A DNA stretch of 64,000 bases from a virus. A program made the position numbers and the translations under genes. The stretch spans positions 1-64,000 of the IMG/VR virus record IMGVR_UViG_3300027870_000001. One strand, given 5' to 3'. The notes under the pieces were generated by a model. It did no database searches. It was given only the letters and a program-made list of their open reading frames with translations, and was not told where the DNA came from. Within the stretch, counting starts at the first letter, position 1. Each line of letters starts with the position of its first letter. Below, piece after piece: positions 19,380 through 59,821 of this stretch.

Positions 19380-19416
19380 TTCGCATACTGTCACCCGACG
19401 TGCTACAGTGACGGGC
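19380..19416 (+). promoter_or_regulatory. Class B dyad promoter of parB (leaderless)
   Basis: -35-like TTCGCA 19380-19385, 18-base spacer, TACAGT 19404-19409, 7 bases to ATG 19417. Dyad 19387-19409; the right half GTGCTACA resembles a parS half-site. Confidence 0.8.
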
Positions 19417-27989: not shown

Positions 27990-28717
27990 CCACCGAAACC
28001 CGAACCCCGAACGCCAACGAGTCGAACGTCGGCCGACAGTGGAAGCTCACCCGCCGCCGCCTCGACCGGATCCTCACCGCCGTCGCCGCCGGTGCCCCCA
28101 TGTCGAGCGCCGCGAAAGCAGCAGGCATCGGCACCTCCACGTTCTGGAAGTACCACGCCCTCGGCCTCACCCTCCTCGACAAGGCCATCGCAGACGGCGT
28201 CATCGACCCCGACCTCCTCGAACTCGCAGAGGAGAACGCCCAAGGGCTCGCAGACGCAGCCGCCAACGCCCAAGGCGAGAAGGCCGCACCGGTCAACCCG
28301 ACGAAGGTCCTCGGCCGCTACCTGTCCGACGCCGGCTGGCCCGAAATCGACTGTCTGTTCGTGGAATTGGTGGACGGAGTGGCCCGTGCCGAAGCGGAGG
28401 GCGAGCTGCGCCTCGTGACTCTCGTGTCCCGTCATGCGGAGAAGTCCTGGCAGGCCGGGATCGCGCTGCTGTCGCGGCGGTGGCCTGAGCGGTACCGGGA
28501 AGGTGTGGAGATCACGGGGGAGGGCGGCGGTCCGATCCACGTCGCGACGGATGCGGAGCTGGCCCGACAGTTGCGTGATGACCCGGAGGCGCGTCGGCTG
28601 TCGTCGGAGCTGTTGGCTCGGGTGACGCCGTCGGCCCCGGTCGGGACCCCGGCTATCGTCGACGACGACGACCCGGACGGCGAGGACGACGGTGACGCTG
28701 CTCCTCCCGGAGAGTGA
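27986..28717 (+). CDS. terS: Terminase small subunit
   Basis: 243 aa. N-terminal HTH (RRLDRILTAVAAGAPMSSAA, KAAGIGTSTFWKYHALG, about 22-60) binds the packaging site; central helical oligomerisation region; AGIALLSRRWPERYRE (about 154-169) is a frequent signature of actinophage small terminases; acidic tail. Overlaps the large subunit gene by 26 bases, as usual for this pair. Confidence 0.75.
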   Translation: MTTETRTPNANESNVGRQWKLTRRRLDRILTAVAAGAPMSSAAKAAGIGTSTFWKYHALGLTLLDKAIADGVIDPDLLELAEENAQGLADAAANAQGEKAAPVNPTKVLGRYLSDAGWPEIDCLFVELVDGVARAEAEGELRLVTLVSRHAEKSWQAGIALLSRRWPERYREGVEITGEGGGPIHVATDAELARQLRDDPEARRLSSELLARVTPSAPVGTPAIVDDDDPDGEDDGDAAPPGE

Positions 28718-31499
28718 TGGGCTCCAGAACGCTGACCGGCTGATCCGGCTGCCGGTCACCCCGGCGCATCTGGGGGTGCGGGCGTCGCGCGGGCATTGGG
28801 TGTACCCGCGGCATATCCAATATCTGAACGAGTACATGGTCGACTTCCTCCTCGACCCTGATGAGCGGTTCGTGATCATCGAGCTCCCAGTTCGCCACGG
28901 GAAGGAGACGCGGGTCGATGAGCCGGTGCTCACGCCGTCGGGCTGGTCGACGATGGGCGCGCTCCAACCCGGAGACGAGGTGTTCGGCCCCGACGGGCGT
29001 CCGACCGAGGTGCTGTGGCGGTCGCCGGTCAACCGGTCGGCTCCGAAGCTGCGGGTGGCGTTCACGGACGGCACCTCGATCGACGTGCACCCGGCGCATG
29101 AGTGGACGGTGTGGTGCCGAGCGAACCGGAAGTGGCGGACCTACGAGACGCAGCACCTGGCCCGGTTGAAGCTCACCTCGGGGCAGGGCCCGACGGGCAG
29201 GTACCTGTACCAGCTCCCGCAGCGGTCCCCGGTCGAGTTCCCCGACGCCGAACTCCCGGTCGACCCGTGGCTGATTGGCTACTGGATCGGAGACGGCGGC
29301 GCAGAGAACGCCTACCTCACCGCGGGCGGCGACGCCGACGAGATCATCGAGATCCTCACCGCGGTGGGTGAAGCACCGCACATCAGGTTCGCTCACAAGG
29401 CGACGGGCTGCGAGTACCTCCGGGTGCCGACGTTGCGTCGCCGGCTGTGGGAGATCGGCATCCGCGGCGTCAAGAAGATCCCCGAGGTGTGCTGGACGTC
29501 GAGCGTCGCGCAACGCCGGGCGCTGCTCCAGGGGATCGTTGACTCCGACGGGCACGTCGAGCGCGGGTCGGGCCGGGTGCGGGTCGTGGGCCACGACGAG
29601 GCCCTCGTCCGCTCGGTCGCCACCTTGGCCCGCACCCTCGGCCACCGGGCCACGATCTACACCGAGACGGACACCAGGCCCCCGCACCTGATCGTCAACC
29701 GTGACGGCTCGACCCAGATGATCGCCACCGCCGGCACCCGCTGGGTCTGCTCATGGACCCCGACCGATGGCCTCCCCCCGGGCCGGTTGGCCCGCAAGAC
29801 CACCGCCCGACCGGCGCGCCGCCAGGAACGGATCGCCATCGCCTCGATCACCGAGGCCCCCCCGGCGGACGGGGTGTGCATCCAGGTCGATCGGTCCGAC
29901 GGGCTGTTCCTCGTCGGACGGGAGCTGATCCCGACCCACAACTCTTGGTTCATCTCGAAGTACCTGACGGCGTGGCACGTCGGGTGTTGGCCGAACAAGA
30001 ACGTGCTCCTCACCTCGTACAGCGACACCTTGGCCAAGGGGTTCTCCCGCGATGCCCGGATGATCTTGGAGGAGTACGGCCCGGACCTGTTCGGGGTGAA
30101 GGTGCGTGGGGACTCCAGGTCGGTGAACCGGTGGGAGATCGCGGATCACTTCGGTGGGTTCAAGGCCAGCACCCTGTACGGGTCGATCACTGGTGTCGGC
30201 GGCGATCTGATCGTGATCGACGACCCGGTGAAGGACGCGAAGGCGGCGCACTCGGTCAACGCCCGTGAGGCCCTGTGGGAGTGGTACCAGGAAACGCTGC
30301 GTGGCCGTCTGGAGCCGGGCGGGAAGATCATCGTGGTCATGTCCCGCTGGCATGAGGACGACCTCGTCGGTCGGCTTCTGGCCCACTCTGAGTCGGACCC
30401 GGAGGCGGACCAGTGGGAGAGGATCCGGTTGCCGGCGATCGCGGAACCCGGGCCGGATGAGCCCGAGTTCAAGATGCCGATCGAGGTGCTGCGCGAGGTC
30501 GGCTGGACCGACGAGATGGGCCGTCAGGCGGGGGAGGCGTTGTGGCCTGAGCGGTGGCCGGTGAAGCGGCTGCGTCGGATCAAGGCGTCGGTGTCGGCGG
30601 TGTCGTGGGAGTCGAACTATCAGCAGCGTCCGACGGCCCGCGAGGGCGACGTGTTCAAGACGCACAACTGGAAGTACGTGGGGGCTCTGCCGGCGGCGGT
30701 TGGGCCGAAGCGGATGATCCGCCGCTATGACCTCGCTGACGACGGATCCGACTACGCCGCGACGTCGCTGCTCGGCTGGCATGAGGGACGGACCTACATC
30801 ATCGACGTGCGCCGCACGAAAGGCGGGTCGGCGCACGTCCGCCGGTTCTTCCGGGCCGCGGCGGTGGAGGACCGCCAGAAGTATGGGCGTGGCATCGAGC
30901 AGATCATCGAGCAGGAGCCGGGGTCGGCCGGCAAGACGATCGCTGACCAGTACGTGGCGACGGTGTTCGCCGGGTTCCGGGCCAAGAAGCTCACCACCTC
31001 CGGGTCGAAGGAGCTCAACGCGGAGGGCCTCGCCGCCCAGCAGGAAGCCGGCAACGTGTACCTCGTCGGGGTCGGCACCGAAACCGACGGCAGCGTGCGA
31101 CCGGCTCACTGGTGGGACGACTACAAGGAGGAGGCCCGCACCTTCCCCCGTGGCGCGAACGACGACATGATCGACACGTCGTCCCAGGCGTACAACGACC
31201 TCGCCGCACGGCTGACCCAACGGGTGAAGGGCCGCGCGGTGACGAAGGCTGGCGCGTCAGGTCGTGGCGGTGCGGTCACGAAGGCGAAGACGGTCCAGCG
31301 GGGCGCGACCTCCTCGTCGAAGGGCAAGCCGGTGGTGCCGCAGATCGAGGCCGAGGTCGAGGACATGCCGGGCCCGGAGGAGGATGCCCCGGAGGAGTCG
31401 ACGGTGATGCCGTCGGCGCCGGCTGCGCCTCGTCGGACCCCGTTGAAGGGCGGCACCGGGCCGGGTCAGCGGCGGAAGCCACCGAAGAAACGCCGGTAG
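28692..31499 (+). CDS. terL: Terminase large subunit containing a class 3 intein
   Basis: 935 aa precursor; about 589 aa after splicing. Extein ATPase: Walker A PVRHGK (66-71) is completed by S418 after intein removal; Walker B LIVIDDP (506-512), DPVKDAKAAHS, a motor motif VVMSRWHEDDLVGRLL. Nuclease domain about 675-840: RRYDLADDGSDYAA, DVRRTKGG, GANDDMIDTSS. It powers DNA packaging through the portal and cuts concatemers. A Lys/Arg/Gly-rich tail follows. GTG start inside terS. Splicing is essential because the P-loop Lys and Ser lie on opposite sides of the intein. Confidence 0.9.
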   Translation: MTLLLPESDGLQNADRLIRLPVTPAHLGVRASRGHWVYPRHIQYLNEYMVDFLLDPDERFVIIELPVRHGKETRVDEPVLTPSGWSTMGALQPGDEVFGPDGRPTEVLWRSPVNRSAPKLRVAFTDGTSIDVHPAHEWTVWCRANRKWRTYETQHLARLKLTSGQGPTGRYLYQLPQRSPVEFPDAELPVDPWLIGYWIGDGGAENAYLTAGGDADEIIEILTAVGEAPHIRFAHKATGCEYLRVPTLRRRLWEIGIRGVKKIPEVCWTSSVAQRRALLQGIVDSDGHVERGSGRVRVVGHDEALVRSVATLARTLGHRATIYTETDTRPPHLIVNRDGSTQMIATAGTRWVCSWTPTDGLPPGRLARKTTARPARRQERIAIASITEAPPADGVCIQVDRSDGLFLVGRELIPTHNSWFISKYLTAWHVGCWPNKNVLLTSYSDTLAKGFSRDARMILEEYGPDLFGVKVRGDSRSVNRWEIADHFGGFKASTLYGSITGVGGDLIVIDDPVKDAKAAHSVNAREALWEWYQETLRGRLEPGGKIIVVMSRWHEDDLVGRLLAHSESDPEADQWERIRLPAIAEPGPDEPEFKMPIEVLREVGWTDEMGRQAGEALWPERWPVKRLRRIKASVSAVSWESNYQQRPTAREGDVFKTHNWKYVGALPAAVGPKRMIRRYDLADDGSDYAATSLLGWHEGRTYIIDVRRTKGGSAHVRRFFRAAAVEDRQKYGRGIEQIIEQEPGSAGKTIADQYVATVFAGFRAKKLTTSGSKELNAEGLAAQQEAGNVYLVGVGTETDGSVRPAHWWDDYKEEARTFPRGANDDMIDTSSQAYNDLAARLTQRVKGRAVTKAGASGRGGAVTKAKTVQRGATSSSKGKPVVPQIEAEVEDMPGPEEDAPEESTVMPSAPAAPRRTPLKGGTGPGQRRKPPKKRR
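28905..29942 (+). mobile_element. Class 3 intein with LAGLIDADG homing endonuclease
   Basis: 346 residues (72-417 of the precursor). Position 1 is Glu, not Cys/Ser, so class 1 chemistry is impossible. The class 3 triad is present: W138 in HEW of block B, C396 in VCIQVD of block F, T415 in PTHN of block G, with H416-N417 and Ser+1. Endonuclease motifs LIGYWIGDGG (194-203) and LLQGIVDSDG (278-287) look intact, so it may still home. Inserted between Lys and Ser of the TerL P-loop. Confidence 0.85.
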
Positions 31500-58950: not shown

Positions 58951-58986
58951 TTGTGCGACTGTCTCACGTCGTGCTACAGTCAGTTG
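58951..58986 (+). promoter_or_regulatory. Class B dyad promoter of large RNA
   Basis: -35 TTGTGC 58951-58956, 18-base spacer, TACAGT 58975-58980; dyad 58958-58980 with CACG-T-CGTG centre. Predicted start near 58987. No ATG at the usual distance. Confidence 0.82.
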
Positions 58987-59462
58987 TGAGGGCAAGCAAG
59001 CCACACCGCCCTCCAGCGCACCTTGAGAATCGAGAACCGGGCGAGGGTGAGACGCCCTCCCTGGGAGCCACGAGCTCCTCACCCGGGCGATGCGTCGCCT
59101 GGGGTAACCCAGCCAGGGATAGGCCAGGATGGAACAACAACACCGGCTCTCGATTCACAACTGCACAGATCGAGGACCCGGCCAACTGGCCGGCCCGTGG
59201 AGGCACCATCCACGTGACCCTGCGACCCTGCCCCTGACGGCTAACGACCACCAGCCACCTGCGAACGGTGGAGGAACCCTGAACGAAGGGCAGGCGAGGG
59301 CACACGGTACGGGTGAGTGAACACGGAGCACGGCCACGAGCCGAACCGAGGTAACCGGGGAGAGACGTCCGAACCGGGGAAGTAGGGGAAGCCACGAGCC
59401 AGCCGGCCAGTTCGCCGGGTCCTCGATCTACGACCTGCCACCGCTCCCGGGCGGTGGCAGCT
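58987..59462 (+). ncRNA. Candidate large structured non-coding RNA (about 475 nt)
   Basis: Promoter-to-terminator transcript with no credible gene. Domain 1: 59027-59040 pairs with 59143-59156 (13 of 14). Inside are GGGTGAG/CTCACCC (59045/59078), GGCGA-TGCG-TCGCC (59086-59099) and CTGGG-GTAA-CCCAG (59099-59112, a GNRA-type loop). Domain 2: 59168-59189 pairs with 59407-59428 (21 of 22), closing about 220 bases that include CCACC/GGTGG (59255-59271). It ends at the 59435 hairpin. It does not match tmRNA, RNase P or tRNA by eye. Confidence 0.7.
59435..59460 (+). terminator. Hairpin terminator of large RNA
   Basis: 10-bp stem CTGCCACCGC/GCGGTGGCAG (59435-59444, 59451-59460) with loop TCCCGG, followed by CTTCGCG. 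Confidence 0.78.
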
Positions 59463-59475
59463 TCGCGCCCCGGCG

Positions 59476-59506
59476 ACTGTCGCCCGTCATGCTACGGTCG
59501 ACACCC
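59476..59506 (+). promoter_or_regulatory. Dyad promoter (TACGGT variant)
   Basis: ACTGT...ACGGT dyad 59476-59498, TACGGT 59493-59498, 8 bases to ATG 59507. Confidence 0.75.
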
Positions 59507-59821
59507 ATGAGCAACCACCCTCGACGCCGAGGCCGGCCCTCCGCCGCAGCCAAGGCCAGCGCCTCCCAACGCACCCACCGCCGCGACCCCGCCCCCACCG
59601 AAACCGGCAGCCGAGGACAGGAAGGCCGACGAGTCGACGTCCTCTACGAAGGCCGCGTCGTCGGCTCCGCGATCCACGTCCCCGACCCGGCCGGGCTCAG
59701 CCCCGGCACCCTCCTCGACTCCAGGATCACCGACCCCGACCTCGCGATCCTCCTCGCCCGCGGCGAGAAGCTCTCCCTCACCGCCGACATCACCCCACCC
59801 AAGCCCAACGAGGGGAGCTGA
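59507..59821 (+). CDS. Unknown basic 104-aa protein
   Basis: Basic N-terminus (SNHPRRRGRPSAAAKASASQ; the RRRGRP run resembles an AT-hook core) then a beta domain (RVDVLYEGRVVGSAIHVPD). May bind DNA. No family recognised. Confidence 0.57.
   Translation: MSNHPRRRGRPSAAAKASASQRTHRRDPAPTETGSRGQEGRRVDVLYEGRVVGSAIHVPDPAGLSPGTLLDSRITDPDLAILLARGEKLSLTADITPPKPNEGS

Follow-up and report, generated by a model that had tools for sequence, protein, structure and literature searches.

Region 58987-59462 of the window (the whole 64 kb stretch of DNA analysed) likely encodes a structured non-coding RNA, of a kind carried by actinobacterial phages, that acts in trans as a standalone molecule and is predicted to form homodimers. 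We assign this reading a probability of about 0.68, its separate transcription and dimerization being inferred. The RNA family and its fold, the single copy per phage record and the lack of a shared neighbour gene are shown by the comparisons below. The 86.8 kb record containing the window comes from a tailed phage, whose genes include those for a portal, a terminase, a helicase and a ParB-like protein. The region itself is non-coding and is flanked by a copy of the phage's repeated promoter on one side and by a hairpin on the other. The features of the locus are the following:

58958-58980, + strand: repeated dyad promoter/operator element ACTGTCTCACGTCGTGCTACAGT with the -10 hexamer TACAGT; seven copies in the record, the five others in the window abutting an apparently leaderless ATG.
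58988-59012, + strand: inferred RNA 5' end (about 58988, from sister-promoter spacing) and first hairpin, GAGGGC/GCCCTC, from the fold.
59023-59160, + strand: accessory 5' domain, a stem (59023-59040 with 59143-59160) enclosing local hairpins including CTGGG-GTAA-CCCAG, from the inverted repeat and the fold.
59167-59429, + strand: conserved core, closed by P1 (59167-59194 with 59402-59429); inverted repeat, arm swaps and covarying columns.
59195-59326, + strand: helix P1b, 59195-59199 with 59322-59326 (CCGUG/CACGG); top-ranked covariation with no prior structure.
59204-59319, + strand: helix P1c, 59204-59208 with 59314-59319; covariation.
59215-59304, + strand: helix P1d, 59215-59220 with 59298-59304; covariation.
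59227-59294, + strand: helix P2, 59227-59233 with 59288-59294, 7 bp; double-sided compensatory changes at every pair.
59233-59251, + strand: conserved motif 1, CCTGACGGCTAACGACCAC; conservation in relatives.
59251-59274, + strand: helix P3, 59251-59258 with 59268-59274; compensatory changes in 7 of 8 pairs.
59277-59289, + strand: conserved motif 2, CCCTGAACGAAGG; conservation in relatives.
59331-59401, + strand: helix P4, 59331-59334 with 59398-59401; weaker covariation.
59355-59377, + strand: helix P5, 59355-59358 with 59374-59377 (CCGG/CCGG), loop GGA...GAA; compensatory changes in all 4 pairs.
59364-59369, + strand: palindrome GACGUC in the P5 loop, a proposed symmetric kissing loop; the slot is self-complementary in the relatives examined, with differing letters.
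59435-59460, + strand: terminator-like hairpin CTGCCACCGC/GCGGTGGCAG (arms 59435-59444 and 59451-59460) without a U-run.
59476-59498, + strand: diverged copy of the promoter, serving the following gene (ATG at 59507) and setting it apart from the RNA; recognized in the sequence.

The longest close inverted repeat of the window lies inside this region. Its arms, those of P1, are 28 nt long and 96% complementary with one mismatch, and a scan of the whole 64 kb (at most one mismatch, arms within about 340 nt) returned only two inverted repeats of at least 18 nt, P1 and a runner-up of 18 nt. The pairing that closes the accessory domain has 18-nt arms with 89% complementarity. Folding of the whole region yielded -235.5 kcal/mol versus -193.5 +/- 5.9 kcal/mol for dinucleotide shuffles (z = -7.1), unlike the flanking genes (z = +1.0 and -1.1), and the accessory domain on its own reached z = -5.5. 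The minimum-energy fold of the core interior without P1 was no better than that of shuffles (z = +0.5); for the inner fold we thus rely on covariation rather than on energy minimization. The region does not form a conserved reading frame, ARAGORN detected no tRNA anywhere in the 64 kb window, and no tmRNA was found there with either ARAGORN or the Rfam model. The initial annotation had described a gene-free region between a promoter and a hairpin terminator, which held, but the hairpin lacks a U-run and strict consensus scans recovered no sigma-70 site and no terminator with a U-tail. The two long-range pairings it had proposed both held and proved longer than claimed (18-nt and 28-nt arms). 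Its reading needs one correction: P1 alone belongs to the conserved core, and the first pairing closes an accessory domain missing in many relatives.

A sensitive DNA search matched the region to a gap in the annotation of some 190 Mycobacterium phages. At the locus of phage Erdmann, the conserved blocks occur in the same order, and the end arms have changed in letters yet remain complementary. Two independent motif pattern scans returned 23 (motif 1) and 24 viral contigs, and all motif 2 contigs also carried motif 1; a handful of the motif 1 hits (L010, L018, L019 and L027) matched unrelated protein-coding DNA by chance. Further pattern scans enlarged the set of distinct alignable relatives of the core to 34, in addition to the remote L057. 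Altogether, some 30 environmental phage contigs carry the RNA, as do about 190 C1 records, Tonenili and the C2 phages Myrna, Phabba and ScoobyDoobyDoo. The 50,697 named phage records yielded credible carriers only in the mycobacteriophage subfamily Ceeclamvirinae (C1, Tonenili and the same three C2 phages). A model scan of 21 phage records found one full copy in each, with an extra 24-bit partial match adjoining the Erdmann copy. No true copy was found in a pattern search of 84,980 bacterial and archaeal species, and an exact 19-mer had 0 hits when prophage and bacterial copies were sought. With a looser gapped pattern there were 7 chance-like bacterial hits lacking P2 or P5, plasmids gave a single short weak match within a protein gene, and a Gordonia match (6% of the query, E = 0.5) was treated as chance. 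The neighbouring helicase and DUF4326 gene, used as protein queries, retrieved no relatives from the viral contigs.

The remote member, at 4433-4572 of L057 (- strand, 42.7 bits), has altered motifs 1 and 2 and an intact P5 loop; it sits immediately downstream of a tRNA-like gene, and the 12.6 kb of this phage gave 8 tRNA calls. In Erdmann, the annotated start of gene 67 (L004, 3253-3642) falls inside the RNA, and a likelier start is the Shine-Dalgarno-preceded ATG at about 3413, just past P1. Annotated ORFs overlap the RNA in other C1 records as well.

A conserved RNA fold is almost certainly present. We aligned 21 compact relatives with MAFFT, leaving out the window, and tested a hand-derived structure of P2, P3 and P5 on the alignment. 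Its covariation score was 0.744, whereas shuffles gave 0.185 +/- 0.024 and slid structures no more than 0.121; double-sided changes were present at 18 of 19 pairs, and 90.4% of cells were paired. The covariance model built from these relatives (R1) recovered the window, on which it had not been trained, at 59224-59392 with 120.4 bits (E = 4.9e-30), as well as untrained C1, C2 and other long-P3 relatives; the length of the P3 loop varies widely. A G-test supplied with no structure gave its highest ranks to P2, P1b, P3, P5, the P5-loop palindrome and P1 and also recovered P1c and P1d, with P4 weaker. Because P1 is too variable to be aligned well, we compared each member's own arms with arms swapped between members: own arms outperformed all 33 swapped partners in 22 of 34 members, including the window (-96.1 versus -81.6 kcal/mol for the best swap). 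The C-G/U-G alternation at P3 pair 36/66 favours the + strand, and the unpaired motifs of the core are very conserved. The initial annotation would have been refuted by homologues without compensatory changes or by translation of the region; this test was run and did not refute it, given the strong covariation and the lack of a conserved frame.

In the relatives, P5 is a 3-4 bp stem of covarying pairs around GGA-N8-GA(A/U). The N8 words are GUGCGCAC, GUGGCCAC, GUUGCAAC, GCUGCAGC, GGUGCACC or GGUGCAUC, with the variants GUGCAC and AUGCAU. The slot holds a self-complementary 6-8-mer, the letters of which vary while self-complementarity is retained, including at the two adjacent central bases. 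Treated as pairs, the palindrome is 95.2% standard (score 0.687 versus 0.162 +/- 0.047), falling to 17% when slid by +/-1; its central dinucleotide switches from GC (12) to CG (7) and the next pair from U-A to G-C. Since adjacent bases cannot pair within one chain, the retained self-complementarity points to pairing between two molecules, and the same central-base argument has been used for the kissing loops of OLE and GOLLD (PMC12286853). Homodimerization via P5 is therefore likely, though it is inferred without structure data or an observed multimer. The palindrome of the window is only 6 nt long, in a loop one base longer than usual, some relatives require G-U pairs in the loop (GGUGCAUC), and a strict palindrome scan missed the P5-loop position in L043, L020, L053, L062 and L054. 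Phabba, Myrna and ScoobyDoobyDoo (L037, L059 and L060) carry a second palindromic-loop hairpin, GGGG-A-GUCAUGAC-CCC, ahead of P5, possibly a second kissing loop.

Searches against Rfam 15 matched no family at the gathering threshold, and neither GOLLD nor ROOL reached that threshold in the window. With permissive filters, neither the window nor a C1 member matched GOLLD, ROOL or OLE at E up to 10, and seven further loci searched at E up to 1 gave nothing but an unrelated sub-threshold sX6 match. The matches to Proteo-phage-1 (E = 2.4), Clostridiales-2 (E = 2.8) and sX6 (E = 0.6) were far below the gathering scores and member-dependent, and were rejected. No earlier description was found in the open literature searched; an account in a subscription journal or preprint is not excluded. 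We therefore regard this as likely a new RNA family, outside all families tested, which apparently works like the ornate homo-oligomeric RNAs, a mode of action that is inferred. The suggestion in the initial annotation of a GOLLD- or ROOL-like RNA, perhaps of a new class, is thus supported: the homologues covary, our own covariance model recovers the window and no Rfam family does.

GOLLD is likewise a large ornate phage RNA of unknown function, with a symmetric kissing loop showing a central GC/CG switch (PMC12286853), but it exceeds 800 nt in many members, forms a 14-mer cage and shows no sequence or covariance match to the present RNA. ROOL is also phage- or prophage-borne, ornate and homo-oligomeric, with no known protein partner (PMC12286853), whereas its solved example is an octamer of about 660-nt chains and an Rfam match is absent. 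OLE dimerizes through a covarying palindromic kissing loop (PMC12286853) but is bacterial and protein-binding, again without a match. The phage RNA pRNA of phi29 oligomerizes via loop-loop pairing (phi29 is cited in PMC12286853). The pairing in pRNA joins two different loops, unlike the palindromic P5 loop, and the window phage, in contrast, has an ordinary large terminase (phrog_38).

The element ACTGTCTCACGTCGTGCTACAGT is a near-palindrome containing the -10 hexamer, and its seven copies in the 86.8 kb record (up to 3 mismatches; window positions 19387, 33103, 45120, 54841, 58958 and 62944, record position 73153) are all on the + strand, compared with 0 in the reversed control. We read the spacing to the ATG at the six window copies, leaving out the one at 73153. 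At five of the six, an ATG follows at a fixed distance of about 8 nt past the hexamer, the exception being 58958, and the genes behind these five are, judging from sequence alone, likely leaderless. The spacing of these starts at the sister promoters places the inferred start of the RNA near 58988. The occurrence of the element before apparently leaderless genes suggests one phage regulon that includes the RNA. In the window phage, the next gene's own promoter at 59476 and the hairpin imply that the RNA is a separate transcription unit, an inference made without expression data. Shortly past P1, many relatives have a gene start preceded by a Shine-Dalgarno sequence and show no obvious terminator; in these, co-transcription or processing remains possible. 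About ten relatives carry a -10-like hexamer 69-80 nt upstream of motif 1, that is, at the edge of P1, and in these the RNA would be inferred to begin at the closing stem. Other members, among them the window and L020, have a closed accessory domain ahead of the core; a comparable closing stem is present in L020 and missing where the promoter abuts P1.

Among the alternatives, a protein-dependent RNP, in which the core binds a phage or host protein in a Y-RNA-like or guide-RNA-like manner and the palindrome is secondary, is unlikely. In its favour are the strongly conserved unpaired motifs and the Ro60/TROVE protein encoded in two Ceeclamvirinae genomes. However, TROVE is missing from 23 of the 25 records searched, including that of the window, where present it lies about 108-128 kb from the RNA, and the neighbours share no protein; a host partner is still not excluded. 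A general Ro60/Y-RNA partnership was rejected on the same rarity and distance. YrlA and Y RNAs that act with Ro60 combine a 5'-3' closing stem with a folded module, as here, and Erdmann and Phabba encode Ro60-like proteins, whereas the other carriers searched do not. The TROVE-domain proteins map to about 129.3-130.4 kb in Erdmann and 131.0-131.9 kb in Phabba.

A cis-acting leader, namely a riboswitch or autoregulatory 5' untranslated region for the gene just downstream, is also improbable. A Shine-Dalgarno-preceded ATG within a few dozen bases past P1 in the C1 phages and several contigs would be consistent with it. Yet the first downstream genes of distant members share no family or homology, and no neighbour protein is common to them; with neighbours so different, the RNA is not the leader of one conserved gene. 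Furthermore, the window has the intervening hairpin and a separate promoter, and a leader would give the palindromic loop no role.

That the RNA is a diverged GOLLD, ROOL or member of another catalogued family is very unlikely. It is phage-borne, large and ornate with putative symmetric-loop dimerization, and tRNA genes, common near GOLLD and ROOL, adjoin the remote L057 and the closer L021, the only members with such adjacency; no Rfam match to such families was obtained, however, in the window or a C1 member even at permissive E values. A chance or DNA-level element (an origin, attachment site or protein-binding palindrome) could draw on the length of the P1 inverted repeat and on the P5 loop being palindromic as DNA too, but is all but excluded by covariation over at least 8 helices with internal loops and bulges retained, by palindrome letters that vary freely, unlike a protein site, and by a promoter position consistent with transcription.

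Under the preferred reading of a homodimer-forming trans-acting RNA, transcription would proceed from the phage's own repeated promoter, from about 58988 to the hairpin at 59435-59460. The long end-to-end stem P1 would close the core, from which two arms emerge, one formed by P1b-P1c-P1d-P2-P3 and the other with P5 at its end. The loop of P5 would present its 6-8-nt self-complementary word, and two RNAs would pair into a symmetric kissing loop, yielding a homodimer or the unit of a larger assembly. By analogy with suggestions made for GOLLD, ROOL and OLE, the assembled RNA may then serve in lytic growth as an abundant scaffold or as a particle that sequesters, for instance, a host factor; such a role is possible, resting on analogy, and our data do not decide it.

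In a bolder reading, to which we incline by a narrow margin, this is a new class of self-assembling phage RNA, forming a homodimer or a larger RNA-only particle during infection. On balance, and with no greater assurance, it would stand next to GOLLD and ROOL as one more phage-borne lineage, related to neither. If so, it would be much smaller than either (the core in the window is about 260 nt), carried without annotation by the genomes of nearly 200 mycobacteriophages that were isolated on M. smegmatis. The large ornate phage RNAs, with shapes solved and jobs unsolved, are a well-known riddle of RNA biology, and a small family in phages growing on M. smegmatis mc2 155 makes deletion, expression and structure experiments practical. 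It would also be an independent case of evolution keeping a self-pairing loop, supporting the importance of RNA homo-oligomers in cells.

Two minor observations concern other genes. In two contigs (L014, 10221-10616; L023, 284-609), ARAGORN called a putative tmRNA that shares the strand of the RNA and lies no more than about 1 kb 3' of it, and the large terminase of the window (28692-31499) contains LAGLIDADG/homing-endonuclease domains, probably representing an intein.
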